Assembly (NCBI GenBank): GCA_947034895.1
Contig: OX344762.1
Span: forward strand, 81,214,981 to 81,278,980
Direction of reading: 5' to 3'
Source: Rhytidiadelphus loreus
Taxonomy: Eukaryota; Streptophyta; Bryopsida; Hypnales; Hylocomiaceae
Length of the DNA: 64,000 nt
Shown: piece by piece, positions 4,278 through 59,340 of the stretch
How positions within the stretch are numbered: position 1 is the first letter of the stretch
Layout of the letters: the number at the start of each line of letters is the position of its first letter
Program-made: the position numbers and the translations under genes
Notes under the pieces: generated by a model
What the model saw: only the letters and a program-made list of their open reading frames with translations
What the model was told of the DNA's origin: nothing
The model's database searches: none

Positions 4278-4677
4278 AATGTCAACTACTCGGGGTCAAC
4301 CGTTATTTGTGTGGTCTAGTTGTGACTATGAGGTAATGAATTTGTAGTTAGGAAATGCTAGTGTGTGGAGGATGGCACTAGGTAGAGTTCTTGAAAAATG
4401 ACCTCAATGGAACTTGAAGAACACTGTTATTGTTGATTACAAGATAGATTATGTAAGCACAAATCCACAATCTAACATCATCATCTCCACTCCCTTTTAT
4501 GTATGTGCACGAGATTGAAAAATTATAAGATGATGAAGTATATTTCAGAACATCTTCATAGTCACTCTTGCAAGGCTTGTTCTACTCACAAGTCATCAAA
4601 TGGTTCCACATTTTTATTCCCAAATAATGAACAAGCACCTAGTGTGGCAATCTCAGTGGCAATTTACACAAAGGACC
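4278..4677. other. Flank between two mobile elements
   Basis: About 400 bases between the CACTA-like element and the large MULE. No gene is seen. It is probably the sequence into which the MULE inserted. Confidence 0.5.
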
Positions 4678-4687
4678 TATAATGAGC
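4678..4687. repeat. Left target-site duplication of the MULE (TATAATGAGC)
   Basis: An exact 10-bp match to 23851-23860. Both copies sit immediately outside inverted terminal sequences. MULEs characteristically make 8-11 bp duplications, so the length fits that superfamily. Confidence 0.75.
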
Positions 4688-5165
4688 GGGGAATGCTGGG
4701 AAGCGAGCGTGGAGCAGCGAGCAAGGAGCGGGGATTGGTGAGCGGGGAGCTGAAATATTGGAAGGAAAACCAAAAAAATGGGAAAAAATAGATGAAAAAG
4801 TAGATGAAAGGTCAATAATAAATGGACCAAATTGAAAAAATAAATAAATTTTGATGCAGAAATTGTAAAAAAGTGTTTGGAGAAAATGAAATTTGTTTTT
4901 GGGAGAAAATGAATGAAAGAAATTGGAAGAAATGAATGAAGTGGTTTGAAAAATTGGATGAAAAATATGGATGAAAGTTGATGAAAAATTATGGATGAAA
5001 GTGGATGAAAATTAATAGATGAAAGTGGATGAAAAATAATGGATGAAGGTGGATGAAAAATATAGATGACAGTGGATGAAATAATGGATGAAAGTGGATG
5101 AAGAAATATAGATGAAAGTATATGAAAAATATGGATGACAATAGATTGAAAAATGGGCGAAAAAA
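4688..5165 (+). repeat. Left terminal and subterminal repeats of the MULE
   Basis: A short GC-rich end (4688-4755) with overlapping GAGCG words is followed by an AT-rich tract in which (G)TGGATGAAA recurs more than ten times (about 4920-5110). The mirror arrangement occurs at 23460-23850. Such arrays often hold transposase binding sites; that role here is inference. Confidence 0.7.
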
Positions 5166-5564
5166 TTTAGTTTCAGTAGAAGGGGATATTGATTTGGGTT
5201 TAGGGTTCAGAAAATGGATGACACATGGTCGAAAAATAGTGGAATGAGAGGGAAGACATAGAAGATAGAGGGTTACAGAGTTGTTAAAAGAACCATTCAG
5301 TTGAGCATGATTTCAGTGGAAATAACTTATTTTAGGACCATGAAGGATTCCTACAACAATGGATTCAGGAGTACACATTTTGGATTTTGCAATTAACTTC
5401 TTGGTTGCGACCTATACGTAGAGATCACAAGATGAGTGCTGATTTGGCAATAGCAGAGGAGACTTTGGCCCTCTGAATTGTTGGACCTCTGATCTTGGGC
5501 TTAAAATTTTGCTTGAATCTGCATGGGGCTAATTTTACAAAATCATGCTCGCGTGGCGGTAATG

Positions 5565-5675
5565 GACTGGGACAAGTAAACGGAATTGAACTGCATGAAC
5601 ACAAGAGACTAGGACAAGTGAACAAAATTGAATTGCATCAACACAAGAGACTAAGACAAGCGGTTTAGGGTAAAG
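5565..5675. repeat. Short tandem repeat, about 45-bp unit
   Basis: Two and a half copies of a unit containing GGACAAGT, GAATTGAA, TGCAT and AACACAAGAGACTA. It lies inside the MULE between its left end and the transposase. Confidence 0.5.
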
Positions 5676-5699
5676 TGCACCAACACAATATGATTTAGG

Positions 5700-6790
5700 G
5701 CTTCCTGTAGGGAAGGTGCTAAACATTATTGCTTCACTCTCAAAATTTCAATCACTACAGTTATCCTACGGTACCTCTTATTTTTTCTGTGAACTCTTCA
5801 AAGATCGCCTCGTATGAATCTAGTAGACCTACTCGCTGTTGTTTGCTTATGCCTTCACGGTAGGATTAGCACTTCGAGCATCACTATACAATTGAGTGCT
5901 ACAACATCACCATTCTTGATTCTATGAGTCTTTAGGTCGTTGTTTCATGGTCGATGTTTAGTTCAGCATTAGAGCATCAACTTTCCTCTGATCATCATTA
6001 CATTCCAACTAGCTCACCATCTGCCAGACATTCATCATGCATCTCCTACAGCAGACAACGCACTCATCCGTGAATACCATTAGGCTCATGAGTTGCATGT
6101 CCACTCCGATACCATTTCAGAAGGAACTCTTCTTGTGGTTGGAAAGGCAAGCAAGTCATGAAGTCTAATGTGTTCAGGAAGGAGTATGTAATCTGGCTGA
6201 AGAAAATGCATGATGAATATTACAAAGATGACAAGCGTGTTGGATAATGATTCAAGTAAAGATCACTAGTAACAATCTTTCATAAACAAGAAGACTGAAC
6301 ACTTCAAATGAATAACGCACCCCAAATATGAAAACACAGAAATCTGCAATTTCTCTGTCGACTACATGCACTCTAACTACTAGACTGTAACATCACCTCG
6401 TACTACTTCAGTCGTTGCGACACTATCCTTGCTATCTAATGAGCACGACTTGAGCTCTACAACACAGACCTTATCACAACTAGAAGCTTTGTATTTTAGG
6501 GAAAGGGCGACAAAGAGAACTTCATCTTCTTCAAATGCCACACTATGGCGACATGTGGCCCACACCTATAAGTTTGCCAGAGATTGCCTTATCCGACTGT
6601 AATGGGCGTACTACACAACACGTGCCATTCAACAATAAAGTTGGCAAAATTAGGATTACCCTCCTGAAAGGGCACAATGCAATGACACCACGTAGTAGAA
6701 CCTTCGAAGTGAGGGCATCCGAAGGCCTTGAACTATAATAAGATATATACATGTGGCCGAGGATTCACTTCTATTGGAATTTCTATATTT
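5700..6790. other. Inner left part of the MULE, no gene seen
   Basis: Mixed-composition DNA with only short frames on both strands, such as those around 6380-6565 and 6535-6752. None shows a domain or a splice pattern. It may be the 3' flank of the leftward transposase or degraded cargo. Confidence 0.4.
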
Positions 6791-6799
6791 CGAAACGAA

Positions 6800-7190
6800 A
6801 AAAAAACGAGGGGGACATAGAGGGGGGATTGACCCGGTGAGCTGTGTAGGGGTTGCCCAACCTCTTGAATTGGGCAGGGGGGCAGGTAGGACACCCAATC
6901 GAACTGGGTAGCGACGGTGGGTAGCAGCGGTTGAAGGTGGAGGATTAAGTCCATCTAGACGGACAGGATTGGGGGCCCAGCCCACTAACTTGGACAGAGG
7001 GGCGGGTACGGTTTTAGAGAGGGTTGCATAGCTCGTCGAGTTGTCAAAGGGAAGGGGCTGTTCAGTCCGTTGAATTGGATATGGGGGGCTCTCCAGCTCA
7101 ACGAGGTGGGCAAAGGGAAGAGGGGCTGTCCACCCAATTGAACTGAGCAAGGAGGGCGGTTTAGGTGGTTTAGCTCGAGGTCGGTCATGT
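6800..7190. repeat. GC-rich degenerate repeat tract
   Basis: G-rich on the plus strand, with loosely repeated modules of roughly 60-80 bases pairing a GGGGNTG word with TTGAATTGGGCAG-like words (near 6865, 6895, 7065 and 7135). The minus strand stays open as a Pro/Leu/Ser-rich frame (6656-7546), which I take to be a by-product of base composition. Confidence 0.45.
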
Positions 7191-7765
7191 ATAGGGGGGT
7201 GTAATGATCGGAAAGGGAGTTTTTGGGTGTTGGGTGAGGGTATACAAGAAGGGTGGTAGTGTGAACATAAAAATAAGTATATAAACAACATTAGGTACTT
7301 CTCAGAAATAAAACCTTCTAGTAGGCTAATGACCATGCTAATAGAATTTCCTACCACTGTAGTGGATGGAAGGGTTATTTTAAACATCCTTTTTACATTA
7401 GAATTCATACACACATTACACTTGAAATTTTGATGTGCATAGAGGTCAGTCCATGTTGTTTGAAAATTCATTGATAGAATTTCCATTTGTTGTGTAGACA
7501 AACACTTATTTTGAGGGTTTAGGTTTCTCAACTTTGGTGGAAGCAAGCAAGGATAGAAATGAAATGGACAAGAGGGTCAAGTCACTTGATTACATACATA
7601 GAAACGAAATGCAATTAGGGTCTAAGAGGACGGCACATTCTTTTGGAAATATTGCGAGGCTAATGATATGCAAGTAGTGGCCCTTGTAGTCTCACTACAT
7701 ATTCATTCAAGAGCACGGTAAACATGAAGAGTACTCCTGTTCCAAAAAAAACAACTAAACCTTCA

Positions 7766-10700
7766 CTAAATATAACTTAGTATTCCACTGAGAAGAACTG
7801 CCTTCACTTCAATAAAACTGAAGCTCGCAGCATGAATAAAGGCATCAGAGTCTGCGTGTAGATTGCAGATGACTATAAAAACAAAGTACAGATGTTTGCA
7901 ATTTGCCCACGTTCCACGCTTCCCCAAGCACTTCAATTTCATCTCCTTGAAATTAGGGCAGGTACAATCGGGAAATGACGAAATCGTGAGCATATACTTC
8001 TCCGTCCGAGGCTGCACACCGGATATGAGGGAAATTATGCAACCAAATCCTGGATGAGGGACTATGGTCACCCTTTCTATGCGTGCATTTAAAGTCAACG
8101 ACGAAGCACAGTTGTTCTGATGCTTAACGGTTGGAGCCTTCGGATTTCGTCTAATAACCTTCCCAGCACGAGTTGTCGGATACACATCTGGATTAGGTGG
8201 AACAAGATAGGCATGTACCGATTCGATTCCTCCTTCTCCACCAAAAAGTCTACGCGGTGAAATAACTTGCTGTTGTGGAAGTTGGAAACCGGCCGCCTCA
8301 AGCGATAAAATCTCGGCTTTTGATAGTTTGGTACCCATTAGAACGGGCCAAATAGACGGAACAGGTGGTACAGATAACACCCATTTCCGTCGATATCCCT
8401 TCACGCAGCGTTCGATGTCGTCGTTACAAAAAAAGAATTGCATACGATCATTACAATTTTTTCTATAATTGACCATCATACCTGTATATGTTGGCGCTGC
8501 TGTAGGTTGATTGTTCTGGACAATTTGAGCAGTACACTTCTTCTTTGTAATTGCTTGGTCGGCAAAGCATGCCTTTGCGGACGTTTTGGGTAATCTAGCA
8601 ATATGCCATTGGGTTTCGTCGCACATGCTCTCTTGGATACATGACACGTGAGTAGATCGGTGAGTACATTCAAGTTCCAAATTTTGAACATTTCCCATGA
8701 CATACTGCATTTCCACATCCACACTTGGAGCGTCGTCTTCCCTAATGGGATTCAGAGGAACTGCACTTGTTGACGCTCTTGAGGCTCTTGTCTGAATGCG
8801 GGGATGCGAAAAATTTACTTTATCCGGCCTATGAGAATCCTGCTCGCATCTTAGTGGCATTTCTACCTTGCGCTTGTGAGACCCGAAGACTTCCTCACCC
8901 TCAAGTTGAGGCTCCCTATTCACAAACTCCTCAACTTCAGGAATGCTTGAAATAGCTTCCGCCAAGGCCTTTGGATTCCCAGTTCGTTCTGCTGACCTTT
9001 GTGCAACACGAAGCATTAGTTCTTCCTTCCCCGGACCGGTTCCCCCTTGATTACCCTTTAGATATTGATAATACCTCACCATCTGCATGAAAGCTCGAAC
9101 AAAATCATCTACTGTGGCAATGTACAAATCAGTTCCTCGATTGCCAGATTGCTGAAGCCATTTATTGTGTACTGTCTCTGCAAGAGGGCATCTCCACAAG
9201 CTCGATTTCATTTAGATCTTGAATAATCAATATCAAATAATGACATGAGATGGGGAACATAAATCATCCTCAAAGCATTAACAATGACAAACAATCAGTG
9301 ACGGACTGAAATAGAGATGCAGACGACTATCCACCGCGCCGAAGAAATTGTGAGAACATGAAGTTTCAGAAGTCCATACTGAGTTTCTAGTGTAAGGCCC
9401 ATTCGGTATCAGCTAGGCATTTCGGAAGCACCAATGCATGCATACATTGCTCGTTACTAAATAGTCAAAGCACATTGACAATAAATAAAACCACAGGAAT
9501 TCAATAAGTAGCAAAGAAATAATACATTGGGTTGGGCAAGATGAAGAAGCATAAAGCCGATCGAGATTGAAGAAATATTTCAAATAAAAGTGATAAGACT
9601 TGAGAACTTACGAGTTGCATAAAGCCGCCCCATTGGCGATAACGAAAATGCCAAAATGCCAGCCACAGGTCTAATCGGCGTTTTCCTTCTTCGCAAGTGG
9701 CACCTGAGGACAACCACCACGATCTAATGGCAAGGTACTTCGATTCAGATTCATCCGGAGAAGTGGCGTTCTTGTATTGCTTGCATAGCAGTCGATGCTG
9801 ATCTTGCAAGTCTCCCCGGATGTCAGCCTTTGTATGCTTTTCCATCGACTGTGTCCAATGGAAGAGGCATGTTCTTTCGCGGTTTTCCATTGCCTTGCTA
9901 CTATCTCCCGATCCATAGATGGTCCTCACAGCATTCCAATTTGCCTGTGCACTATCAGCCATAAATCCCTTGAATTGGGTATTGACAACACCGTGTCGCT
10001 CTAAAATCGAATTCAAATTCCTCCAGAACAGAATTTGGGCTGACGTGTCCTCCGATTGCATGTCACAAATTGCGATTGTCATCACGCGGCAGTACACAGA
10101 ATCATACACGTGGCATGCCATTGTGGTCCACCCTTTCACCCTTTTCACGTGATCGAACATCATCCATGAGTCATGAAGATCTCCATCATTTTGCATACGC
10201 TTCACTAAGTCAACTCCACTTCCAGGACCCACTTCAGACATTTTGAAAAGAAAAACTTTATCTGACTTTGTTCCTTGACCTGGAAATTTGCTCTCCTGAA
10301 TGAAAGCCTACGTGCTGGATCCCCTCAACTTTGTAATACTGTCAATGACACCAAATCTCCGAAGACATTTGAACGATGTGACCTCATTTCGAATACTTGG
10401 AGAGCTGAAGTACTTGCACTTGTCCAGAACAGGAACTAGGTCAACGAAATCAAGCTGCTTTGGATGTATCCCATCCTGACTGAGTAGAAGTTCGCCTAAC
10501 AGTTCTTTTGTAGCCTCAAGCACAATAGAAGAATTAGTTGCGGTCGGGGTTCTCTCCATCTGTTCACCAATTAGAACTCGAGTTCTATCCCTTAAGTCTC
10601 GGAGTTCACCATCCTTGACTGGGTGTTTGTGAACTCCAAGGTGTATGAACGCCCGAGTCATTCCTATAATTCCGAGGACATAGTATGCCTTCACAGCACA

Positions 10701-11696
10701 CATGGCAATACACGAAGGAGGTTGTTTGCATATTTTACAGACAAGAGATGACCCCGTTGGATGCAGGTCTCCAACATTGACCGCAGAGGGAGACATACCT
10801 TCCCATTCCATCTCATTCACAACATCATTTCGATTACCACGACTCAAGAAGTCACAACTCGCATTCAAGCATCTAAGATGCCCCACACAAATGGATGAGC
10901 GGAATGTCAAGCCCATACGATTACTAATATTTGTTGTCATTGTTTTGGTCTAGACGTGCCCGTCATATCGCTTATCCATGCCCACCATCTGATGAGCATG
11001 AGATGGAGGTCGGCTAGTCTGTACAGGAGGCAACTCAAAGATAATATTTCCGTTGAATCTCGGAGGCAGCGTATGAACTCTCTCTATGGAAATCGACTCA
11101 TAATCTATTTTAGACAATACATTCCGACATCCCTTCTGTAGCCGCAATTGACGTAAACAATGAATCACTGATGCACCATTTGCAGCAAAACTCTCCGCCA
11201 CAGATTTGGGAAGGCTACTTAAGCTAGGCAAAGTAGACACCGAGGAAGGCGTCTCTGAATTCAACCTACGCTCAGGCGAATTTTGGTTAGAGTCTGAACT
11301 AAGAATGGTTACATTGTCCTCCCGGCGTTCTACCTTCACAGGAATCAAGGGAGGTGTCTGATACGACGACATAGATGATTGACGCGGTGTACCAATCACG
11401 TCATCAGCTGGAATAAAGTGAGTACGAACTCCGTAAGCTCTATACTTTCCGGGTTTCAGTCGCCACGCAGTAGTCCCATCTTGCAAACTAGGAAGTTGAC
11501 CTATAGTATGAACAAGGATCCCTGATTCCGGTTCAAAAACTTCTTCGTCCACGTAGATCGAGTCCTCCCTCAATTGAAACCTGAGACCTAATCGAGTAGC
11601 TAGAACAACAGCAATGCCATCATCACGAATCGGAAATATAATTGGAACTCCAGCACCGTCAGCACTCACGACGACCGAATTTGATAAGTCCTCCAT
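7766..11696 (-). pseudogene. MULE transposase with SWIM zinc finger, apparently broken
   Basis: A leftward frame with ATG at 11696. An N-terminal segment of about 248 codons ends at TAG 10950-10952. The same frame continues into a zinc-binding segment (GHLRCLNASCDF, then CKICKQPPSC and HLGVHKHPV), ends at a second TAG (10308-10310), and continues again into the DDE-type core: FKGFMADSAQANWNAVRTIYG, then RTCLFHWTQSMEKH, the D...C-x2-H pattern typical of MULEs. A GTAAGT donor lies near 9612. The last exon (to 7766) starts near 9211 with LAETVHNKWLQQ and ends with a SWIM finger, CTC...CKH, at about 7895-7975. Transposase domains are well supported. Two in-frame TAGs, plus a TAA just before 9211, suggest decay. 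A 78-nt intron removing the second TAG is formally possible. Confidence 0.7.
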
Positions 11697-11762
11697 CCCA
11701 ACTGTGCAAGAAAGCTGGACGACCGTGACATCCAAGTAGAATATGAAAAACAAAGTGTACAA

Positions 11763-13095
11763 AATAATTATAAGAATAGTCTAAACAAAATTCACGGTGA
11801 TATATGATTAGGACCGTTCAAAGCGCAACAGAGATCTATACCAAATAACACTCATCTATGGAAAATGTAATCGATGCACCAGGAATAACTGAAGCGCAAC
11901 ACATGTACAAAACAGGAGATAACCGCCCTAAGCTATCATGACAGGAATCGGAAGAACTGAGCGCCACTAATTACTTCTAATGACTTCGGACGTCATAAAA
12001 TCCCGTCGAATTTAGGGAAAGTAAATTTTCTTTAAAAGTTGGTTGCGATGTACATCGACGATTTCTTCTGTGATTTTAAAATTGAATGGCACAGATCCCA
12101 AATTGGCACAACACTTGGAATGTAAACGGATTGTACATTGTTGATGGCAATGACAAAACTATTACAAATGCAAACTGAAAATGTCAATAACTACTGCCCT
12201 TTAGGACATGCGCCACATATGGACCGATTAGCATATATGGCGTCAGCTAATCAAAGGAGGACACGATTATAATATATCAGAGAACCCATATCAGAATTTC
12301 ATCACAGTAACATTATCATCTGTATTAACCATACTCTCTAATACATCGAAGCCTTCAAGGTGTGACATTTTAGTCCATCAACGTCAACTGTATTTAGTCC
12401 ATATTGGGGTCCGATGGACTGATTATTTAAACATTAAATCTGTAGGTCTGTATTGAATTGAAAAATGGATTTGATAAGTAGATTATATTCAAGTACCTGA
12501 ACAAGAATTGAAATAAAGAATTAGATTGGAAGTCTCTGACTCCTAGTAGAATGTGGATATTAGGAAACAAAATTCCGTATGATGATACATAAAAAGGAAG
12601 TGATCATATTAGAATTGAAAATTTTCAAGTGTCAAGTAGGATTATTAATCCACCATTCAAAACTAGTTACCTGCATTTCAAATTACATTCCATATCCACA
12701 AATGATTTGTGAAGAATAGAAACTAAAGAAGGCGCGAATCCATTCTGACGCGGAGACTCTGGCGACTGGAGTCCAAGATAGACTCTGACATTTACAGCAA
12801 TCATTTCATGGTCATTCATAAGTCAGGGAGGTGGATATTCATTGACTGTATCATAACATTTTTAATGTTGGTTAAAAGTACCAGCCACGTAAGCTAAAAT
12901 TTCATGGAGAGACTTGAAAAAGTCGTAGGGCGGCTAAAGAATGATTTGCCCACGACTCGTAAGAATGACTATACATTAAAGTATACGAACGTGATTTAAA
13001 CGCCGCAAAGTTGAAGGCCGAACCTGATCCCGACACGAGCGCCGCCACCGCCGACCTATACTAGCCCTGTCTCCCGAACCACGGTAACTCGTCAT
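11763..13095. promoter_or_regulatory. Divergent intergenic region between transposase and cargo gene
   Basis: About 1.3 kb separates the starts of two genes that run away from each other, so it presumably holds both promoters. It is AT-rich over most of its length and becomes GC-richer close to the cargo gene (13000-13095). I saw no unambiguous core promoter or repeat. Confidence 0.35.
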
Positions 13096-16000
13096 ATGGG
13101 TCTTCGCGCCACAAAACTAATCCTTTTCGAGTTCGGGCGTCCACTTCCTAGCCAAAGTGCCGTCTCCCTACCTAGCGTACTACACGAACTAACTTCACTG
13201 TTTCTGCACTTCAATGTATGGATTTGCATTCTCTACTCGTGTTTGATGCTAGGTTTTCCAATTCGGTTCATTGCTAAACTCCTACATCTGTACTGGCACA
13301 GGGAACTCGAGATGGACCGGCAAGGACCGAAACTGAGATCGCGGCGCCACATATCTGATGCGCCAGACCCAGGCTCTCAACCGCCTCCAAACGACAATGA
13401 CGAGCTAGAGGTATGTCCCCATTTTATTTCGTTTGAATCCATGCATTTTATTGGCCTATGCTGAGCAGTTCCTCACAGCCGAGGGAGGCCGTGTATTGGG
13501 CTGAAGCAACCTGCGGTAAGCTCACGATATCTGAGCGGCATAATTCCTTAATTTTGTTGTTGCGTAAGTTCAGCAATACCCGCCCTGCTTTGGACTGCCC
13601 TCTCGAGAATCCGAAGCACGGTTAAGCCTAGCACACGATTTCAGCTTTATGGTATCTCTCGAGATTATGCTGATTAGCGTCCTCATCTTATCACTTCGTA
13701 AGTTGCGCAAGAACCCCATTTCTAGGAACGCAGCCTCGAAATCTTGTGGAGGTCTGTGCATAGAAAAAGCGAGCTCAGGAGATCTCATCTCCCTCGATGC
13801 GCGGCTCACTTTAAGTGTCCTAGGCATGTGCCGTTTCTTTCCATTTCCTTGAGTTCCATTCCAGACATTAGCCACGCAATAGTTCTCCAAGTCCGACCTG
13901 TCGACGAACGCCCACACGACATTTTGAGAGAAGCCATGGTGAGCTCATTGTTCGCTGAGCATTGCCGTTCGGGCTTGTTCCATGGTTGTCCATTTTTTTT
14001 GGTGGGATCGTTAAGTCCCAGCTTCAAGATTTGGTGCTCGCCGTTGCCGCCGAGGATGGCCCTCTCGGGGCCGAGACGGGGTCGGAGGCCTCACTCCCCG
14101 AGCTCACCTTGTGGGCAGTGCCATGCCGGTCGGGCTCGTTCCGTGGTTGTCCATTTTTTTTGGTGGGATCGTTAAGTCCCAGCTTCAAGATTTGGTGCTC
14201 GCCGTTGCCGCCGAGGATGGCCCTCTCGGGGCCGAGACGGGGTCGGAGGCCTCACTCCCCGAGCTCACCTTGTGGGTAGTTCCTTGCCGTTCGGGCTCGT
14301 TCCATGGTTGTCCATTTTTTTTGGTGGGATCGTTAAGTCCCAGCTTCAAGATTTGGTGCTCGCCGTTGCCGCCGAGGATGGCCCTCTCGGGGCCGAGAGG
14401 GGGTCGGAGGCCTCACTCCCCGAGCTCACCTTGTGGGCAGTTCCTTGCCGGTCGGGCTCGTTCCATGGTTGTCCATTTTTTTTGGTGGGATCGTTAATTC
14501 CCAGCTTCAAGATCTGGTGCTCGCCGTTGCCGCCGAGGATGGCCCTCTCGGGGCCGAGAGGGGGTCGGAGGCCTCACTCCCCGAGCTCACCTTGTGGGCA
14601 GTGCCATGTCGGTCGGGCTCGTCCCATGGTTGTCCATTTCTTTTGGTGGGATCGCTGGGTCTCAGCTTGTAGATCTGGTGCTCGCCCTTGCCGCCGAGGA
14701 TGGCCCTCTCGGGGCCGAGAGGGGGTCGGAGGCCTCACTCCCCGAGCTCACCTTGTGGGCAGTGCCATGCCGGTCGGGCTCGTTCCGTGGTTGTCCATTT
14801 TTTTTGGTGGGATCGTTAAGTCCCAGCTTCAAGATTTGGTGCTCGCCGTTGCCGCCGAGGATGGCCCTCTCGGGGCCGAGACGGGGTCGGAGGCCTCACT
14901 CCCCGAGCTCACCTTGTGGGTAGTTCCTTGCCGGTCGGGCTCGTTCCATGGTTGTCCATTTTTTTTGGTGGGATCGTTAAGTCTCAGCTTCAAGATCTGG
15001 TGCTCGCCGTTGCCACCGAGGATGGCCCTCTCGGGGCCAAGAGGGGGTCGGAGGCCTCATTCCCCGAGCTCACCTTGTGGGCAGTGCCATGCCGGTCGGG
15101 CTCGTTCCATGGTTGTCCATTTTTTTTGGTGGGATCGCTGTGTCTGAGCTTGCAGATCTGGTGCTCGCCCATGCCGCCGAGGATGGCCCTCTCGGGGCCG
15201 AGAGGGGGTCGGAGGCCTCACTCCCCGAGCTCACCTTGTGGGCAGTGCCATGCCGGTCGGGCTTGTTCCATGGTTGTTCATTTTTTTTGGTGGGATCGTT
15301 AAGTCCCAGCTTCAAGATCTGATGCTCGCCGTTGCCGCCGAGGATGGCCCTCTCGGGGCCAAGAGGGGGTCGGAGGCCTCATTCCCCGAGCTCACCTTGT
15401 GGGCAGTGCCATGCCGGTCGGGCTCGTTCCATGGTTGTCCATTTTTTTTGGTGGGATCGTTAAGTCTCAGCTTCAAGATCTGGTGCTCGCCCATGCCGCC
15501 GAGGATGGCCCTCTCGGGGCCGAGAGGGGGTCGGAGGCCTCACTCCCCGAGCTCACCTTGTGGGCAGTTCCTTGCTGGTCGGGCTCATTCCATGGTTGTC
15601 CAATTTTTTTTGGTGGGATCGTTAATTCCTAGCTTCAAGATCTGGTGCTCGCCCTTGCCGCCGAGGATGGCCCTCTCGGGGCCAAGAGGGGGTCGGAGGC
15701 CTCACTCCCCGAGCTCACCTTGTGGGCAGTTCCTTGCCGGTCGGGCTCGTTCCATGGTTGTCCATTTTTTTTGGTGGGATCGCTGTGTCTGAGCTTGCAG
15801 ATTTGGTGCTCGCCGTTGCTGCCGAGGATGGCCCTCTCGGGGCCGAGAGGGGGTCGGAGGCACCCTCCCCCGAGCTCATTGTCCTATCTCAGCCTTGCCG
15901 AGCGGGCATTTTTGAGGTCCTCCATTTTCTACCGATTGATTTCGGTTCATCAGCTCGCAGATGCTGAGCTCCACCCCCCGCCGAAAAAGTCCCTCTCGGT

Positions 16001-19000
16001 ACCGAGAGGGGGTCGGGGGCTTCGCTTAGTGAGCTCACATAATGGTGTCTTGCCTGGATTGCCATGGAGGACCCTCTCGGTACCGAGAGGGGCTTTGAAC
16101 CTCGTGTTACTGTGCTGGGAAATTGGGGTTGGCTTTTTTTATTACTTCTTCAATGCTATTGGAAGTTGTTATAATATATCGTTGTGGATTTTATTGAGAG
16201 TGCCTGGCTTTGGGGGTCGACTATCTTTGGAAGTCTAGGTAGCCTAGGTAGGCCCTCTCGGTACCGAGAGGGGGTCTGAATTCTATGTGACTGAGCGCAT
16301 GGAGAGGGATTTCGCGGGTCCAGGATTTCTATTGGATGTTGTCGTGTTTAATTGTAATTTTTTATATTTGCATTTCTATTGTTTTGGCCTGTCATTGAGA
16401 TCTTGCTTGTGTTCCGTTCTATCTCTCTATGAGCTCAGTATTTTATGAAACAATAATTGAATTATTGATATTCTTGTGCAGATGAGTGATCGTGTTGCTG
16501 GTGAAGCGCACCGAGTAGAGGCTGCGCAAGCGGACCTACCTCGTCCAAAAGGGGTGGACATTGCCATGGCTGATGCTGCCTTAGCAGATGCCCCATTACC
16601 TGCGGCAGGCGATATTGAAGTTCCACCTACATCTCCAAGGCAGATGGTAGGCGACCTTGATGACCTCATTCGTGACCTGGATGATGGAGTTGGATTCCGG
16701 GATTGGGACAATACAGTATCACGACAATCATCCTGCTGCACATCGTTAGGGTCATGGGATTTAGAAATTACAGTGTCGCAGAATAGGGATGATTATTGCG
16801 ATGTTGACGATGCCGACTCCGGACCCATGTCAGATGATGACGTCCTCATATTCTGTTGCGGGATGTTTAGGTCCCCAACGGAGGCTTGTTTGTGTACCAC
16901 TTAGTAGATCATACTATAGTATGTCCACCTTAGGTGTCGTATATTGGACCTTCTCACTCTATTTTGATTTGATTAATTTACTCTTTGAAGTTTTATATTC
17001 TCATCGTCATTGCAGCTTTGGGACTTTACAATCTGTCATGTCAATTTGAATCTAACATCTCTACTTTAATTTCATCGTCAGGGACAGGGCCCAAGTTCTC
17101 AAAGTTCTTTAGACGTGGCTAATAAATCTATCCACCAAGATGTCATGGAGTTCCCCACGGAGGAAGATGATTCAGAGGAAGATCAAATACCAGGAGTTGG
17201 TCCAGGCTTCATGGAGGAGGACATTAGGCGTGTTCAAACATTCGATTCTGTCAATATCATCAACAGCTTGAAAATGACGTCTGACGGTAACTCGCGCATG
17301 AAGATTCCACTTTGCAGGTTGGTGCCAATGCCTATGGTGCGGCCCACCTTAACCTGCGATTTGACGCAGCTTGACAACCAATTCTCTAGAGGATACGACG
17401 AGGGTGCGCGAGTGTTTTATGTTTCCTTCTCTGACGAGAAGGGGAACACGGAGGTATTCAGTGAAAATAAGAAGGAGTGGGGTCCCATTTGGAACTCCGT
17501 GAATGACACATTCAACGCTCACTTAAAGTCGATTCCGTCATTGAAGCACCTTGTAGACTACAAGTTTTTTGTCTGCGACAGCAATCATAGGATAATTGCT
17601 TGGATGAATCATATCCAGAGGTTGCACAGCCTTGAACCCACATGGCATGTGAGTGTGGACTCTATAGTCTTGGACACAAGACAACGAATCGGTGTGGCTA
17701 TGCAAGCTATGCATGATATAAATATGTAAGTTGTTATACTCTTCATGTGTTCCATTCTTCGTTGAGTCGCTCCTAGGCAGACATTGGATGCATCACATTG
17801 TGCTTTTTTTACTTGCATTCGAGTCTAACATTCTTGTGCTACGACAGGCACACAGAGAACTCGCACGTGAAAACGAACCTTGTCCACACTCTATACCGTG
17901 TCCAGAAGTATGGCATCATGGAACTGGAGAAGTTCCAAGAGCTCTTAACAGAGGAAGAGGTGCAATCATGCAAGTCCTACACTCAGACGAGTTGGTATAC
18001 TATGCCACTGCATTTATTTAGTGGTTTTATATTCAAGGTAAGTCATATGTCATTCCTAATCATTTGTAATTTTGACTCTTTCACCGACTGAATATGACCT
18101 GACTCTAACCTTTGATGTGGTGGTTTAATTCATTCAGCAAGAAATTTCTGCTTCAGCGGATGCGGCGATACGCAAACTGAAAGAGGAAAACCCAGATGTT
18201 CAGGTGTCTAGAGAGGCAATCGCAGCCACGATGAGGTCGGCTATAAAGGACTCCACGGATAGGCATTACAAGAAACTCTCTAAGATAGTGGTCGTCGCCA
18301 ATCCTGCACTTACTCCAGAATGGCTTAAGGAGGTATGAGATCATCCATGTGTTAGTCATTGGTCTTGTCTATGATGTATTATATCTCGCTGTTTTGTTGA
18401 TGTTTGATCTCATGCAGATTGAGAGGCATTGGAGTCATAACGATGTACCTGAGTTGACGCTTGAGAAGCTGCAACTTATTGCAACTGTTGCAGTAGAGCC
18501 TCGACATAAGGTAAAGTGGCTCAAATGGATGAACGCCAGTACCCACACGAGGGAAGCTCGGCGATTTCCTCCTCGCCCGGTGAATGAGGAGAAATTGTCC
18601 ATGTTTCTGGCAAAGGCTTGTTATTATGTAGGGGTATGCTCTCTTACCTCGTCATGAGTATAGTGCTACACATTTAATTCTGCCTCATATAATATACAAT
18701 ATCTTACAATTCATCAAATTATGCAGCTGGAGGAGGCAGCTGTGGAGATGTTTGAGAACATCACCCACAATGATAGCCTCCCCATCAACATGACTGTTCC
18801 AGGGGAGCCCCAATCACTTCTGGAGTACATAGAAACATGGCGGATCAAGCTTTGGGATCAAGCTTACACGGGAGTCTTCAAGGGATCGGATGCTTTCAAG
18901 AAGTCGGACTCCTTCGCTTTGTATAGGGGAACCAACCTTACAGTGAAGAGGTTGATTTATAGGTACAGTTCTGCATTCCTTAATACTTAGTGTTTATACC

Positions 19001-21331
19001 ATTCATGGATCACGACCACAACCAGATGATTCTGGTGTGGTGACAGAATTGTGTGATCAATTTCAAACTACCATGTGAAATTTGAAAATATCTTATTTGA
19101 CTGACTTAAGGAAATTCTGTGGCCCCACCTCTGGCGTGCACAGGTACTTCAAGTTCGAGTTGTACGGGAAGAAGGCCATCAAGAAGGACGACTTACCCCC
19201 CTTTCTTACTACCTGGCTAGAGCGGTCGTCACCCGATTGTATGTTCTCCACCACACAGATGCTGAAGTGGACCAGTCCACATTTGCAGACTTATCCTTGG
19301 TATTTGGAGTGTAACTTTGGCGTTACACCTCCCGAGGAGGAGGCCCTATTTCAGACACTCAAGGATTCTGTGGTCACTGATGCGGAGTTCGACGAGTTCG
19401 CGGGACTGGATGCGGAGGCCAGGGCTAAGGCCATCAAGAAACGGAAGGTCTCAGATAAGAAGAAGGTGGAAAAACTGGAGGAGGCAAAGCGGAAAACAGA
19501 GGAGAACCAGAAGCGGGGTGAGGAGAAGAAAAAAAAGCAGCTACTTGAGAAGGAGCAAGAGAAAGAGAAGAAGAAGCAACGGCGGTCAAAGGATGACACG
19601 CCTTTGTCCGAACCAGCTACAAGTGCAGCGGATGCAAACCTTTCATCATCTGGCTTCTCACTCACTCAGGAACGCTTGGGGCAAGGCAAGACCCCGTCTG
19701 CTAAGATTGTGATACCTGCACCCGGCATCGACGAGTGCGTTCTCAACGTTGGCTTGAAGAATCTTGACATGGAATCATCAGCTTTCAAAGATGTTGAAGC
19801 CTTCTTAGCCATGGTAATTCTTTTACATCCTTATTCTTTTTTATTGCATTCCTAAATTAAATTATAGAATCTGAGTAAATCATAATGATCTCTACATTTA
19901 CTTGGAACCACTTCCACCGTCTATGTAACTCTGAAAACTAGTTATGCATTGACAATGTCTTACATTCTTTGCTTCATGCAGCATTCCAGTGACAAGACAC
20001 GCTCCATTGATGGAATCAGTGGATCCGATCCAGGTGTAGACTTCATGATAGTTGATATGCCTGAAGGACTCCCCGTTCCCACTATCTCGACAGCACCTGC
20101 TCTTGTTCCAAAGTGGAACGAGTTCAAGACCGACTTCTTGTTCCCTGTGTTTGATTTCGCCCAGGAATTCCTTCATGACGCTGGGGCACTTATCTTGATT
20201 TATCCAGTGTCCTCTCCATTGCACCGAAGTCACATTCTAGGATGCTGTCAATCTTACAAGTTCCGCATTCTAGAGACGTATCTCGGCTCCAATCATCTCC
20301 ACCTGACATCAGCGGCAGATCATAAGAAAACGGTAGATTTCCCTAACTTCAATTGCATTGTATTGTAAGAGATTTTTATTCCATTCTACGATATTAAAAT
20401 CGTTGGTTCTGCAGACTCAGCAGTTCTCGATCTTGTTACTCGTGCGAAATGGTGGGCCGAAGACACTTCAGGACTTCCCGTTCCAGCTTGTTCCGTCTCA
20501 GGCCAATTTGGGTGTTAACCTGGCTAAGGACGACATCCTTCGAAACCTTGTTTTCAATGAAGATGTGACGATGAATGGGGACGTGCCATGGCGTGGTCCT
20601 CGGGAAAAGGGGTGTGAGTTCATGCAGATGTTCATTGAAGCATGTACAGTACTAGGGGACATAGTTGTTGATTGCACAACGGCGACTGGTATGGTTCTTA
20701 CAATCACTCATATTCACTATGCTTCATTTTACAAATACCCTTCGATTGTGAACTCAATTTTAGGGTTTTCTGTATGTCAGGATCCACCATCCATGCTTGC
20801 CGTGCAACGCGTCGTCATATTCTTGCATTTGAGGAACATAAGGACATCTATGATGCCCTTATTGCTCTGGTACTTCGACCAACTGTGGTTCCTGAGGCGA
20901 TGTCAGCCGTCTCCGCGCTTGACCTTGGCGACGAAGAGGACGAGGACGTTGTAGTCCAGAAGGTCAAGACAACACTTCGATTCAGTAAGTAAGTCACCCC
21001 TAATACCTCATTTTAGGCATATTGCTTCACCTTGACCTCACAATATTCTAACATGTGGTTCACTAATTTGTGTAGGCAAAGCCAAGAAGTGACATCCTCC
21101 AAGCCAGTCCCTTTTTTTGCGAATCCACGTTTTTTCCCAAGCCCCCCAAAATCGTTTCAGCTACCTCCGTATGCGGAGGCTCTTTCTCGGAATTATGTTG
21201 CACAAAACCCTCGAGCTGCTTCTAGGGGCCGATTCGTGAGTCCTCGCGTTCTGGAGTTTGTAGATGAGGAGGCAGTACAATCAGATGTGGATACATCTGA
21301 TAGTGAGGGTAGTTCCATGTCTGCACTTTAG
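13096..21331 (+). CDS. ParB/Srx-like plus DNA amino-methyltransferase-like protein, MULE cargo gene
   Basis: Likely exons: 13096-13410 (start at 13096 or, more likely, ATG 13312), 16482-about 16841, 17082-17725, 17848-18037, 18138-18332, 18418-18633, 18727-18962, 19144-19813, 19982-20332, 20415-20688, 20781-20988 and 21076-21331 (TAG). Junctions from 17082 onward keep frame with GT-AG borders; the 16.84/17.08 junction is uncertain. Exon 3 resembles a ParB/Srx fold: KIPLCRLVPMPMVRP, then FFVCDSNHRIIAW (compare D-G-x-H-R). A charged KKR-rich coiled coil is encoded at 19380-19600. Exons at 19982-20988 resemble circularly permuted N4/N6 DNA methyltransferases: VDMPEG where DPPY is expected, FDFAQEFLHDAGALILIYP, then EKGCEFMQMFIEAC, GDIVVDCTTATGGSTI and RRHILAFEEHKDIYDALI. 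Both catalytic motifs are altered. The C-terminus is acidic. The family calls are mine from motif reading. Confidence 0.6.
13570..13940 (-). other. Uncharacterised antisense ORF
   Basis: A minus-strand frame open from about 13940 to a stop at 13570. Its residues look protein-like (FVDRSDLENYC, KRHMPRTLKVSRASREMRSP, FLEMGFLRNLRSDKMRTLI) and are not low-complexity. It lies antisense to the putative first intron of the cargo gene and has no clear start codon, so it could be an exon of another element gene or a remnant. I do not recognise a domain. Confidence 0.3.
13965..15885. repeat. 161-bp GC-rich tandem array, about 12 units
   Basis: The marker GGTTGTCCATTTTTTTTGG recurs every 161 bases (13984, 14145, 14306 and so on to about 15753). 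Units are more than 90% alike by eye and differ by substitutions such as GTTAAGTCCC versus GCTGTGTCTG. Each has a near-palindrome, CCCTCTCGG-GG-CCGAGAGGG. Because 161 is not a multiple of three and the unit lacks stops in several frames, long overlapping frames appear on both strands; they are artefacts. The array lies in the presumed first intron of the cargo gene. Confidence 0.85.
15991..16272. repeat. Three perfect 20-bp palindromes after the array
   Basis: CCCTCTCGGTACCGAGAGGG occurs exactly at 15991-16010, 16072-16091 and 16253-16272. It is the array's palindrome with the centre changed from GG to TA, so it is now perfectly self-complementary. Sequence between the copies is far more diverged than in the array, so the 20-mer itself has been kept. 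Confidence 0.8.
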
Positions 21332-23400
21332 CTATCAAACTCTTTCTGGATAGGCTATTGAACACCGAACTTTGTTGGATTTCATATATTACTCTTTCTT
21401 GGTGCTCTCAAGTGCTTAATTGTTTTTACTTTGTACATTGCGAATTCGCGGGTTAGTCCATATCTTGCCACTTTTTTTTTGGCTCTCCAATGGAATGATA
21501 GTTTTTAATGCGTCTAACTTTCCAGGGAGATGATTTGTTTTCAAACATAAGCTAGATTCTTTATTCTTTGTGTTTGATGTGAATTTCCAAAAGAACATTA
21601 AGCATGATAGTAGGTTGTCTCAATTCCCTTTAGGTACTGGTTTTTCTCTTTCAAATCGCTTCCTTTCAATGGACACCCAAAAAATGATAAAGAGATAATC
21701 ATTATTTCAGTTGTTGGTCGAAATTGTATAGCATAGACTTGTTAATAGGTATGGTCTTCTTGGAAAACATAAAGGATTATTTTATTACATATGAATGTGT
21801 GCTTTGGGATGAACTAGTTTTTTATAATTGTAATGGATTTGTAAATATCTTGTTCATAGTGTGTATATGTCTATTCAAGAAACTAACAATGTTGTTTTGC
21901 AATGTCATAGCAATTGTGCAGAAGCTTAGGCATGTCTACCCCATATTCTACCCTCTAGACATGGTGGCATTCATGCAAATACATGAATGTGCTAATATAA
22001 TTCAGGGCTTTTGTGGCTATCTGGTTTAGGTAATTTGTTTCAGGGCATCTTGGTCTACTTTTGAGTTCCAGAGTATTGCCACTTCAAGCCGTCTTATAGA
22101 TTATGCGGATGATATAGGCCATGTTGGGATTGAACCCAAATCATTTCAAGCACTACTTTAGCCATACATGAAGGTATAAAGTATTTGAAAGTAGTTTTTG
22201 TGTCTACGTTGTGGCTTATCAATTTCTTGTTTTGAAGCCCGTGTACCCAAAGGGGATGAAGGTACTGTCGTTGTTTTCAGCAATTGCAGAAACTGAAGTA
22301 CCTCTTCAGATGATCGGGACCAATCTGAACGGAGTGGTGAGCGTGGAAATAGAAGTACCATGGTGATAGTCACTTCCACTGAGATTTCGTCATGGCTAGA
22401 GAAAATTACCAATGCTACCTGATATGTCTATGGAAGCTTACATACTCCTTGTTTGTGACTCTCAATGTTCGTTTCATCGGGTTCATTACGCGCAAAGCTA
22501 TTATATTTAAGAGGCCTAGGTGTACATAGCATATTTCTCCTGAAAGCAGCTTACGTTCATGTAGAGTTGTGCTTGGCTTCAGTATTTGGTAACCAATAAA
22601 ATAATCGTTAAAAAAAACAATTTCTCTATATATACAATGGCTTCTCCCATTTCTATTTTGAAGACCAAATATGTAAAGGTAATCAAAGTACTGTCTTCGT
22701 TTTCAAGGATAGAAGGAGCTGAAGTACTTTGTCAAAAGGTTGGGAAGTAAAGCACGGAGGTCATAGAGGGAGCCTGGCATTATCTGCAGACATGGTGGGC
22801 ATTAACGAATCATAAAGGCTATCTTGAACTGGACTATCAAGATATGAGATAACTTAGAAGAGATGTCCTGAGCAATCTTGTATCAAAGTATTGTGACTTA
22901 GGTTTAATTGTTGGTGGGAGTCCATGTAACAACTTCACCAACTACAACCATCACACACGCATACGACTTGATGGTGAGCATTCTACTAATTTTTTTGAGT
23001 TCTTACCTACCGTTGCAACTGCCTATGACCACATTTGGACTGGTGACAATGCATGAACACACCATGCCAAGTAGATTGAAGTAATTGAATAATTGTATCC
23101 TTTCACTATTATCAGCAATAAAATTCGAATACATTTTTGATATTGAGTTCAAATATTTCTTTGCCAAATTTGAGATCCTGATGTCTCATAACTCCTCGGC
23201 ATAGTCAGTAGACAATGCACACCTCATTGTTAGTGTGCACAGTAGTCTGAAGATTGCTAAAATAGCTCATTAGCATGTACCGTGTATGAATAGATAGCAC
23301 CATTGAATGTTTAGCCTCAAAGTACTCCGCACTTTGAATATTGTTTATGACATGGCAGAAGCTGAAAGTGCTTTAAAGATCCAACGCAAGGGCCAAGGGT
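21332..23400. other. Inner right part of the MULE, no gene seen
   Basis: AT-rich DNA downstream of the cargo gene's TAG. There is no clear polyadenylation signal, only short frames, and no recognised domain. The frame at 21724-22029 is Phe/Ile/Val-rich and looks like a composition effect. Confidence 0.45.
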
Positions 23401-23459
23401 TTCTTCTCTTATAATGTTCAATGGTTTAAATGTGGTGCTGCGGCAATTAATACATCGTA

Positions 23460-23850
23460 AATTGATTTTCATCCAATATTTTCATCCAGTGATTTCATCG
23501 ACTCTTTTCATCCATTATTTTCATCCACTATCTCCATCCACTATTTTCATCCACTATTTTCATCCATTATTTTCGTCCAAACTTTTCATCCAAACTTTTT
23601 CATCCAAACTTTTCATCCAATTTACTCTCCCTATTTTTTCATCCAATTTTTTCATCCAATATACTCTCCCTATTTTTTCATCCAATTTTTTCATCCAATT
23701 ACTTCTTCCAATTTTTCATCCAATTTTTCCTAAATTGTCATCCAATATTTTTTACTTTTTTGGCTAGTTTATTTTTCTAAATCAGAAAATCCCCGCTCCT
23801 TGCTCACCAATCCACGCTCCACGCTCTACGCTCACATGCTAGCTCCCTTG
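23460..23850 (-). repeat. Right terminal and subterminal repeats of the MULE
   Basis: TTTCATCCA and close variants occur about twenty times between 23465 and 23740, followed by a GC-rich end of CGCTC-type words (23795-23850). On the minus strand this mirrors the left end in both order and content. Confidence 0.7.
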
Positions 23851-23860
23851 TATAATGAGC
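23851..23860. repeat. Right target-site duplication of the MULE
   Basis: TATAATGAGC, identical to 4678-4687. Confidence 0.75.
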
Positions 23861-24262
23861 TAGATACTAGAGAACTTGCAAGGTGAGGGGATGTAAGAAC
23901 CGCATGGTTCTATTTTGGAATTGTCTTGTTACTTTGATTCAAATACTTGTTGTGATATGGTGGTTGTTGAGTAGTACAAAAGGTTCAAGGGAAGCAATTC
24001 TCTAAGAGGAAAGAAAGTGCTACAACAAAAAAGACAAGCTTCCAACAAAATCACAAGGTAAGCTTTTCTGCCTTCTTCAATTGCCATTATGTGAGCATCC
24101 AACGGTGTCCTTGACCTTCAACTGCAAGCACTATTTGTCAACTAGCATCCAAGTCAAAGACATTAGTGATCATTGTACATTTGGTGAAGCTCATTTGACT
24201 TGTTATGTTCTAGGAATGTGGTTTGCAAAGCTTTAAAAAAAATGGGGACTCGATACTCTAAA

Positions 24263-58574: not shown

Positions 58575-59340
58575 CCTCTTGCGTGCTGTAAAGTTCTTTA
58601 CGGAAAACGTTGGGAAGCGCTTCGTTGCGGGGGACGAGTTTTTTTAGGTTAGATCGTTTCTTCCGAGCGCATCATTTTCTGTTGCCATTTGTTGATAAAT
58701 GTACACTTGTGTAGGTTTTACCGATCAGAACCCCTAGATGATCAGAGTTGATAACTCCTGGTCTCCCCTTCACAACAACAACCCCTCCTACAGTTCGAAT
58801 GTCCCCGTGGGCAATCTGAACACATGCATTGAACACATCAACCTCTTGCGTGCTGTAAAATTCTCTACGGGAATCGTTGTGAAGCGCTTAGTTGTGGGGA
58901 AGAGTTTCTTTTAGGTTAGGAATGAAATGTTTTCTGTTGCCCCTTGTTCGATAAACGTGTTTTTGTGTAGGTAACCCTGATCAGAACCCCTAGATGATCA
59001 AAGTCGCTAACTACTGGGCTCCCTTTCGCGAGGATCCCCCGCCCCCGACTACAATTCAAAAGTCCACGGGGCAACCCCAATATATGCAATGAACACATCA
59101 ACAACTTATGTGCTGTGAATCTCTTTACGGAAATTGTTGTGAAGCGCTTCGTTGTGGGGGAGAGCTTTTTTAGGTTAGGAATTATCTATTTTCTGTTGCC
59201 ACTTGTTGACAAAACGTGCTCTTGTGTAGGTCTCACCGATCAGAACCCTTAGATGATCAAAGTTGACAACTACTGGTCTCTCCTTAGTAACGACACTCCC
59301 TCCTACAGCCCAAATGTCAAGGCAAGCACATACATTGACA
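58575..59340 (+). repeat. Threefold tandem repeat, about 260-bp unit, at the ABI3-like 5' end
   Basis: Each unit has GTGCTGTAAA/GAATCTC, GAAGCGCTT, TTTAGGTTAG, TTTCTGTTGCC, TTGTGTAGGT, then GATCAGAACCC, TAGATGATCA and AACTACTGG. Units begin near 58580, 58845 and 59105. The third runs into the coding exon. Confidence 0.8.

Follow-up and report, generated by a model that had tools for sequence, protein, structure and literature searches.

How transposons escape silencing by their hosts has been worked out at the molecular level in few systems, among which VANC is a clear plant case. In the VANDAL elements of Arabidopsis, which belong to the Mutator-like elements (MULEs), a protein encoded by the transposon binds short motifs that recur in tandem within introns and upstream regions, and removes methylation, as described in the cited sections of two papers (PMC5735166, PMC10398659). 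A survey of the ParB fold reports, in the sections cited, that phages have fusions with N6_N4 methyltransferases more often than bacteria do, and that the form most common in eukaryotes is sulfiredoxin; its main text contains neither 'plant' nor 'transpos' (PMC12704722). Here we describe a transposon of the moss Rhytidiadelphus loreus, contained in a 64-kb stretch of contig OX344762.1 (hereafter the window, meaning the whole stretch of DNA analysed), which carries a transposase gene and a second, divergent gene, referred to as the cargo gene. A preliminary description of the window had proposed that the cargo gene fuses a ParB/Srx-like and a DNA methyltransferase-like domain inside a plant MULE. 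The data presented below show that the cargo gene is mobilised with the transposase, that its protein is under selection and is homologous to methyltransferases, and that a palindrome is repeated in its first intron amid turnover of the surrounding repeats. No published description of the cargo protein, or of the palindrome in a transposon, was found in the titles and abstract openings searched, which lay outside subscription journals and preprints.

A companion gene and the palindrome in its first intron

The cargo gene at 16482-21331 is real and is borne by the transposon. Its twelve exons (Table 1) yield an open protein of 1,190 aa, the spliced frame running to a TAG stop codon at 21329-21331. 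The host assembly comprises 407 Mb in 489 contigs, five of which are 51-94 Mb long. Ten near copies of the element, picked among the closest, were fetched and aligned to the window, and the same 12 exons were aligned in each of them. A length change that is not a multiple of three was present in 3 of the 116 exon alignments scored (4 of the 120 were too weak), and the splice signals were retained in most cases (acceptor AG, 101/108; donor GT, 104/106). For exon 2, the donor (position 16716) was picked from the phase; all nine copies in which this exon is aligned have GT there. The intron-rich gene of the preliminary description was confirmed and is fully open, with a probable addition, the upstream exon 13312-13410: this exon 1 is alignable in 8 of the 10 copies, retains its GT donor in 7 of these 8, and is very probably part of the gene. 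The frame is fully open in two of the eight complete copies, the window and c4_12.86, the others having one to four stops or, in one case, a frameshift (three of the 11 copies, which lack an exon alignment, were left out of this count). A pseudogene was rejected on the basis of these two open frames, and chance open frames are ruled out by the conservation of exons and splice sites in the copies together with the substitution ratios given below.

The cargo gene is not a single-copy host gene outside transposons: the exon bearing methyltransferase motif I has at least 150 matches in the genome (150 scored of 1,022 candidates), distributed on all five large contigs, which rules out this possibility. 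A listed transposase lies no more than 30 kb away from 57 of these 150 matches, compared to a mean of 3.4 and a maximum of 9 when positions were placed at random (200 trials). In 54 of the 57 linked pairs, the transposase is located upstream of the cargo match and in the opposite direction, in agreement with the divergent transcription first proposed for the window. Linkage of this kind was found for 39 of the 53 transposases closest to that of the window and for 15 of the 97 next ones. As both lists of matches are lower bounds, the true linkage may be higher. These data support the view of the cargo gene as the conserved companion, divergent from the transposase, of a family of transposons.

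The ratio of nonsynonymous to synonymous substitution rates (dN/dS) of the cargo gene is 0.16-0.24 in the 14 pairs of copies whose dS exceeds 0.2; seven recent pairs gave values of 0.31-0.55, and seven further pairs (dN/dS 0.21-0.53) were excluded because they involve c3_47.4, a frame-shifted copy. The cargo protein is thus clearly under purifying selection between subfamilies, and the combination of low values between subfamilies and higher values in recent pairs is what would be predicted for a gene that is under selection during the mobile phase of the element and less constrained once inserted. When the window was compared with the most diverged alignable copy, dN/dS was 0.09 in exon 3, 0.06 in exons 4-7, 0.08 in exon 8, 0.22 in the methyltransferase exons and 0.11 in the tail. 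Exons 1-2 could not be aligned in this copy and gave values of 0.37-0.50 in the other three subfamily pairs. As a separate observation, dS between the window and c4_12.51 (L015, L016) is about 0.95 in exon 3 and declines to 0.20-0.25 in exons 9-12, which suggests mosaic copies or gene conversion.

Intron 1 of the cargo gene, which precedes exon 2, contains a tandem array, and arrays are found at the same place in 8 of the 10 other copies, with units of 160-192 bp and from about 3 to 34 copies of the unit. A 20-bp palindrome, CCCTCTCGG(NN)CCGAGAGGG, recurs in the intron: allowing up to three mismatches, all 15 sites of the window fall between 14060 and 16272 and none elsewhere in the 64 kb. Its exact core, TCTCGGNNCCGAGA, occurs 12 times in the window intron, compared to a mean of 0.005 in 200 shuffles. 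At the same threshold, 9 of the 10 near copies have 5-36 palindromes; in the tenth, c1_42.3, which has none, the upstream part is non-homologous to that of the window. Copy c1_1.49 has six palindromes yet no qualifying array, and c3_47.4 combines 36 sites with only two exact cores, since its right half-site is damaged. The half-site 8-mers CCCTCTCG and CCTCTCGG (either strand), as well as AGGGGGTC and GTGAGCTC, are common to all nine unit consensuses, that of the window included.

Eight diverged copies were also selected by hand, and the upstream sequence was examined for four of them. The core is present in three of these four (L034, eight occurrences; L035, five; L038, one; L040, none) and in none of 200 shuffles of each intron. 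In L040, the half-site ACCGAGAGGG is found within a 150-bp array (22.8 units). Once low-complexity 12-mers were left out, the 12-mers shared with the window intron derived from the palindrome or its half-site in 3 of 3 cases for L035, 3 of 7 for L034 and 2 of 3 for L040 (half-site), and L038 shared none. The other four of the seven 12-mers shared between L054/L034 and the window intron (13411-16481) are overlapping pieces of a second motif, TCTATGCACAGA. What is new here is a set of arrays, located in the intron that precedes exon 2, with units that vary from one subfamily to another yet share the palindrome core; the palindrome is kept in this way in the window (14060-16272) and in L013-L032, L054 and L055. 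That a short site persists while its surroundings are replaced is most simply accounted for by a putative protein-binding site.

Domains of the cargo protein

Profile comparisons firmly support homology of the C-terminal domain to the N4/N6 DNA methyltransferases. Comparison with four phage methyltransferases using hhalign gave 97.5% (E 6.6e-12) over a region spanning motif IV to motif I, whereas three control comparisons gave 0.0-1.1%. The Pfam family N6_N4_Mtase (PF01555) scored 25.5-26.5 bits on the window protein, just below the cut-off of 26.7, and matched each of the three sequences in the family alignment; the DNA methyltransferase family PHROG 3008 (E 6.3e-7) and, in the PDB, DpnA (E 0.0026) were also matched. 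This half of the proposed fusion was thus upheld. The nearest named protein to the cargo is P0001, from the moss Ceratodon purpureus; with P0105, the other relative from a different source, it has the motifs D[AL]PE[GS]LPVP, PWRG.REK and STGA. Such relatives are under-counted, as one search scored only the 7,990 candidates sharing most words, a second, limited to the methyltransferase part, returned no protein at all, P0001 included, and P0001 was also absent from the list of a third. Scans of viral contigs with the cargo domain, P0105 and the transposase returned no matches.

Motif IV of the N4/N6 methyltransferases has the consensus (D/N/S)xP(Y/F/W), and its aromatic residue holds the target base; the phage relatives have DIPY or DLPY. 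The cargo motif does not fit this consensus, the aromatic position being occupied by Glu in 18 of the 18 sequences read (9 of the 11 near copies, window included; 7 of the 8 diverged copies; P0001 and P0105). The motif was not read in three sequences: two near copies unmatched by the search pattern, and one diverged copy. The third position is Pro in 15 of the 18 and Leu in three. In motif I, the second Gly is kept in the three sequences compared. The first varies: three of the 11 near copies and two of the 8 diverged ones have Gly there, and the others Ala, Ser or Asp. The cargo domain and the known enzymes (PF01555; phage DpnIIB-like, DpnA, CcrM) have the same permuted order, from motif IV to motif I. 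They differ by DxPE for DxPY, PWRGxREK in place of HPTQKP, variation at the first Gly of motif I and about 800 extra N-terminal residues in the cargo protein. Because Glu replaces the aromatic residue of motif IV, ordinary methyltransferase activity is doubtful, and so is the working enzyme that the preliminary description had in view; the domain is methyltransferase-derived, of permuted N4/N6 ancestry, with ordinary catalysis probably lost. Another eukaryotic transposon, the DIRS1 retrotransposon, encodes a methyltransferase domain of unknown function, which, unlike that of the cargo, is part of the pol region, a comparison made from the published description as cited (PMC3266345).

A ParB/Srx-like N-terminal domain is plausible but unproven from the motifs of exon 3. 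In most recovered copies this exon reads IPLCRxxPMPMVRP...CDGNHRRIAW, similar to the N-terminal boxes of ParB proteins, the window having the variant CDSNHRIIAW. The DGNHR box is present in 11 of the 14 sequences recovered by a pattern that required NHR (5 of 19 were unrecovered), and GNHR is also found in an Arthrobacter phage ParB-like protein. Over this box, 4 of 7 members matched PHROG 1033, 'ParB-like partition protein', at insignificant E values (0.08-0.47), and one matched DndB (E 0.057); Imm63 is the sole Pfam family listed for these members (2 of 7, best E 0.048). Two results argue against a ParB fold: none of the seven cargo members matches Pfam ParB_N (PF02195), and hhalign against sets of 5 and 13 ParBs aligned the same box at 0.1-0.6%, compared to 1.1% for the transposase control. 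Searches of Pfam, NCBIfam, the PDB, and phage and plasmid sequences by tblastn returned no significant ParB relative of the cargo. Structure models had mean predicted local distance difference test (pLDDT) scores of 39.1 for the ParB-like exon alone (single sequence) and 29.5 for P0001 aligned with P0105, both too low to be informative on the fold. The box and the weak PHROG matches speak for the ParB/Srx-like half of the proposed fusion, and the profile results against it. Like the phage ParB-methyltransferase fusions, the cargo protein has a ParB-like box preceding the methyltransferase domain, but it differs from them in its putative ParB fold, a long middle region, 12 exons and a eukaryotic transposon as carrier.

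A search of the genome with PF02195 found five places (L041-L045; contigs C234, C293, C199, C308), all on small contigs of 39-67% GC. Two of these loci have what we take to be ParA-like neighbours, and the contigs are probably bacterial contamination of the assembly.

Ends of the element and its transposase

The element has a length of 19,164 bp and is bounded by the 9-bp direct repeat TATAATGAG, whose two occurrences in the window are those flanking 4687-23850. The four other copies with both ends in hand each have their own 9-bp duplication, so that all five copies (window included) bear one, with one mismatch in a single copy. In other copies, the left limit of homology falls at 4676-4688 (five copies reaching this end) and the right limit at 23850-23862 (nine copies), seven of the nine ending at 23850 exactly. 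The target-site duplications of MULEs measure about 8-11 bp according to the cited part of a paper (PMC6446971). The 9-bp duplication and the inverted ends fit a MULE assignment, and the family is described here as MULE-like.

The transposase has open frames of 700-800 aa in other genomic copies, at least 150 matches in the genome (150 scored of 1,326 candidates) and relatives which, among the best-covered matches, reach 78% identity across most of the transposase part. Most of the transposase-family proteins retrieved (119 of 121) do not match the cargo. At the profile level, the Pfam MULE domain was not found in the window transposase or in five relatives, and the best profile match, to SWIM, is weak (10.3 bits, E 0.55). 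A search of the PDB with the transposase gave no match at E up to 10. This large family, with no significant Pfam match in five relatives and no match in the PDB, is perhaps an undescribed MULE-like clade. Elsewhere in the window, a 259-bp tandem repeat (2.4 copies, 58674-59285) adjoins an open frame of 377 aa.

Table 1. Features of the transposon, with window coordinates
Feature	Position	Strand	Basis or remark
Left target-site duplication TATAATGAG	4678..4686	+	perfect 9-bp match to the right one
Whole transposon, 19,164 bp	4687..23850		flanking TATAATGAG direct repeat; ends of homology in other copies
Left terminal inverted repeat core, 32-bp arm	4705..4736	+	88% complementary to 23788-23819
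Left subterminal array, GGATGAAA-type repeats	4951..5154	+	inverted relative to the right array
Transposase gene	7766..11780	-	two in-frame TAG stops and one frame change in the window copy
Cargo exon 1, starts with ATG (probable)	13312..13410	+	in frame with exon 2
Tandem array in intron 1, 161-bp unit, 11.9 copies	13963..15878	+	arrays likewise placed in 8 of 10 other copies
15 palindromes CCCTCTCGG(GG/TA)CCGAGAGGG, up to 3 mismatches	14060..16272		perfect at 15991, 16072 and 16253
Cargo exon 2, acidic N-terminal part	16482..16715	+	donor inferred from phase
Cargo exon 3, ParB/Srx-like region, CDSNHR in window	17082..17725	+	motif-level resemblance
Cargo exon 4	17848..18037	+	open frame and copy alignment
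Cargo exon 5	18138..18332	+	open frame and copy alignment
Cargo exon 6	18418..18633	+	open frame and copy alignment
Cargo exon 7	18727..18962	+	open frame and copy alignment
Cargo exon 8, conserved region and K/E-rich linker	19144..19813	+	open frame and copy alignment
Cargo exon 9, methyltransferase motif IV (DMPEGLPVP)	19982..20332	+	profile comparison
Cargo exon 10, PWRGPREK and start of motif I	20415..20688	+	profile comparison
Cargo exon 11, end of motif I and following acidic residue (LAFEE)	20781..20988	+	profile comparison
Cargo exon 12 and stop	21076..21331	+	open frame and copy alignment
Right subterminal array, TTTCATCC-type repeats	23465..23751	+	inverted relative to the left array
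Right terminal inverted repeat core, 32-bp arm	23788..23819	+	88% complementary to 4705-4736
Right target-site duplication TATAATGAG	23851..23859	+	perfect 9-bp match to the left one

Possible roles of the cargo protein

By analogy with VANC, we tentatively favour, at somewhat below even confidence, a reading in which the cargo is a self-encoded companion of the MULE-like family that binds the intron array and counters silencing in a VANC-like manner through an unrelated protein. The cargo protein would bind as a dimer to the palindrome in its own intron, with TCTCGGTACCGAGA as the candidate target; once bound, it would cover or open the region between the two divergent genes, and this binding would keep the element from being silenced, as VANC does on VANDAL elements. 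The cargo protein is the best candidate for such a binder since a different repeat, which would suit the transposase, is already present at the ends of the element. The earlier suggestion that it binds repeat arrays gains support from the conserved palindrome, the binding itself being putative. The likeness to VANC lies in a companion encoded beside the transposase and in a short motif in tandem arrays of noncoding parts, with repeats that change quickly between copies, as reported in the cited sections (PMC5735166, PMC10398659). The two differ in that the cargo protein has a methyltransferase-derived domain in place of the VANC domain, in that the VANC site is a directional 9-mer whereas the cargo element has a palindrome, and in that anti-silencing by the cargo is putative.

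Several observations weigh against this reading. The Pfam VANC domain (DUF1985/DUF287-type) was not detected in the cargo at E up to 10. The array units of c3_47.4 and c3_52.0 have a damaged right half-site (CCAAGAGGG and CCAACAGGG, respectively), one core of c4_12.51 is found in its transposase region, outside the intron, and among the four diverged copies L040 is without the core and L038 has a single one. The confinement of the palindrome to the elements holds for the window and the fetched copies, the sequences in which it was assessed. Finally, four subfamily pairs gave dN/dS values of 0.22-0.35 for the methyltransferase exons, against 0.06-0.19 for exons 3-8, and in one recent pair the methyltransferase exons have a value of 1.12.

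It is also conceivable, if unlikely, that the transposase or a host transcription factor binds the array and drives both divergent genes, the cargo acting elsewhere, for instance in integration, as maize mudrB apparently does. The position of the array between the divergent genes and the palindrome within the transposase region of c4_12.51 are in keeping with this, and MULE accessory open reading frames with other roles are known from the cited part of the MULE paper (PMC6446971), whereas the different repeat at both termini, GGATGAAA, would be a better candidate for transposase binding. We judge to be similarly improbable a mechanism in which the ParB/methyltransferase-derived protein would recognise a parS-like palindrome, spread over the element and block silencing, no longer modifying DNA; sequence-specific anti-silencing would then have been invented independently, from a bacterial-type DNA-modification enzyme. 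The parS sites of ParB are clustered palindromes, and the cargo gene likewise combines a ParB-like box with clustered palindromes; the cargo palindrome is different, and both a partition role and the ParB fold of the cargo are putative.

Less probable still is an active DNA methyltransferase whose marks, placed on the palindromes or on the ends of the element, would shield the element or determine its chromatin state. Homology over the whole domain, from motif IV to motif I, would suit such an enzyme, as would three residues kept in the three sequences compared, namely the motif IV Asp, the second Gly in motif I and the acidic one that follows it. A second Pro in motif IV is dispensable, as the DIPY and DLPY of the phage relatives show, and the first Gly of motif I is variable and not lost. 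Against it stand the invariant Glu of motif IV, the predominance of Ala, Ser or Asp at that first Gly, and the weaker constraint on the methyltransferase domain than on exons 3-8. Passive carriage of a captured host or bacterial gene is very improbable, for while MULEs tend to pick up host gene fragments (PMC6446971, part cited) and N6_N4 methyltransferase-ParB fold fusions are enriched in phages (PMC12704722, sections cited), the cargo is under purifying selection across subfamilies, with dS up to 0.95 in exon 3, is linked to the transposase in many copies and shares its altered motif IV with homologues from other sources.

Taken together, the companion gene, the noncoding motif array, the fast turnover of its units and the persistent core compose a layout like that of VANC, and the short palindrome makes the proposed control system directly testable. 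If the favoured reading is true, a second, unrelated protein with this layout would suggest that sequence-specific anti-silencing arises repeatedly, and a methyltransferase-derived, possibly ParB-fused protein would have found a use in eukaryotes, beyond bacteria and phages.

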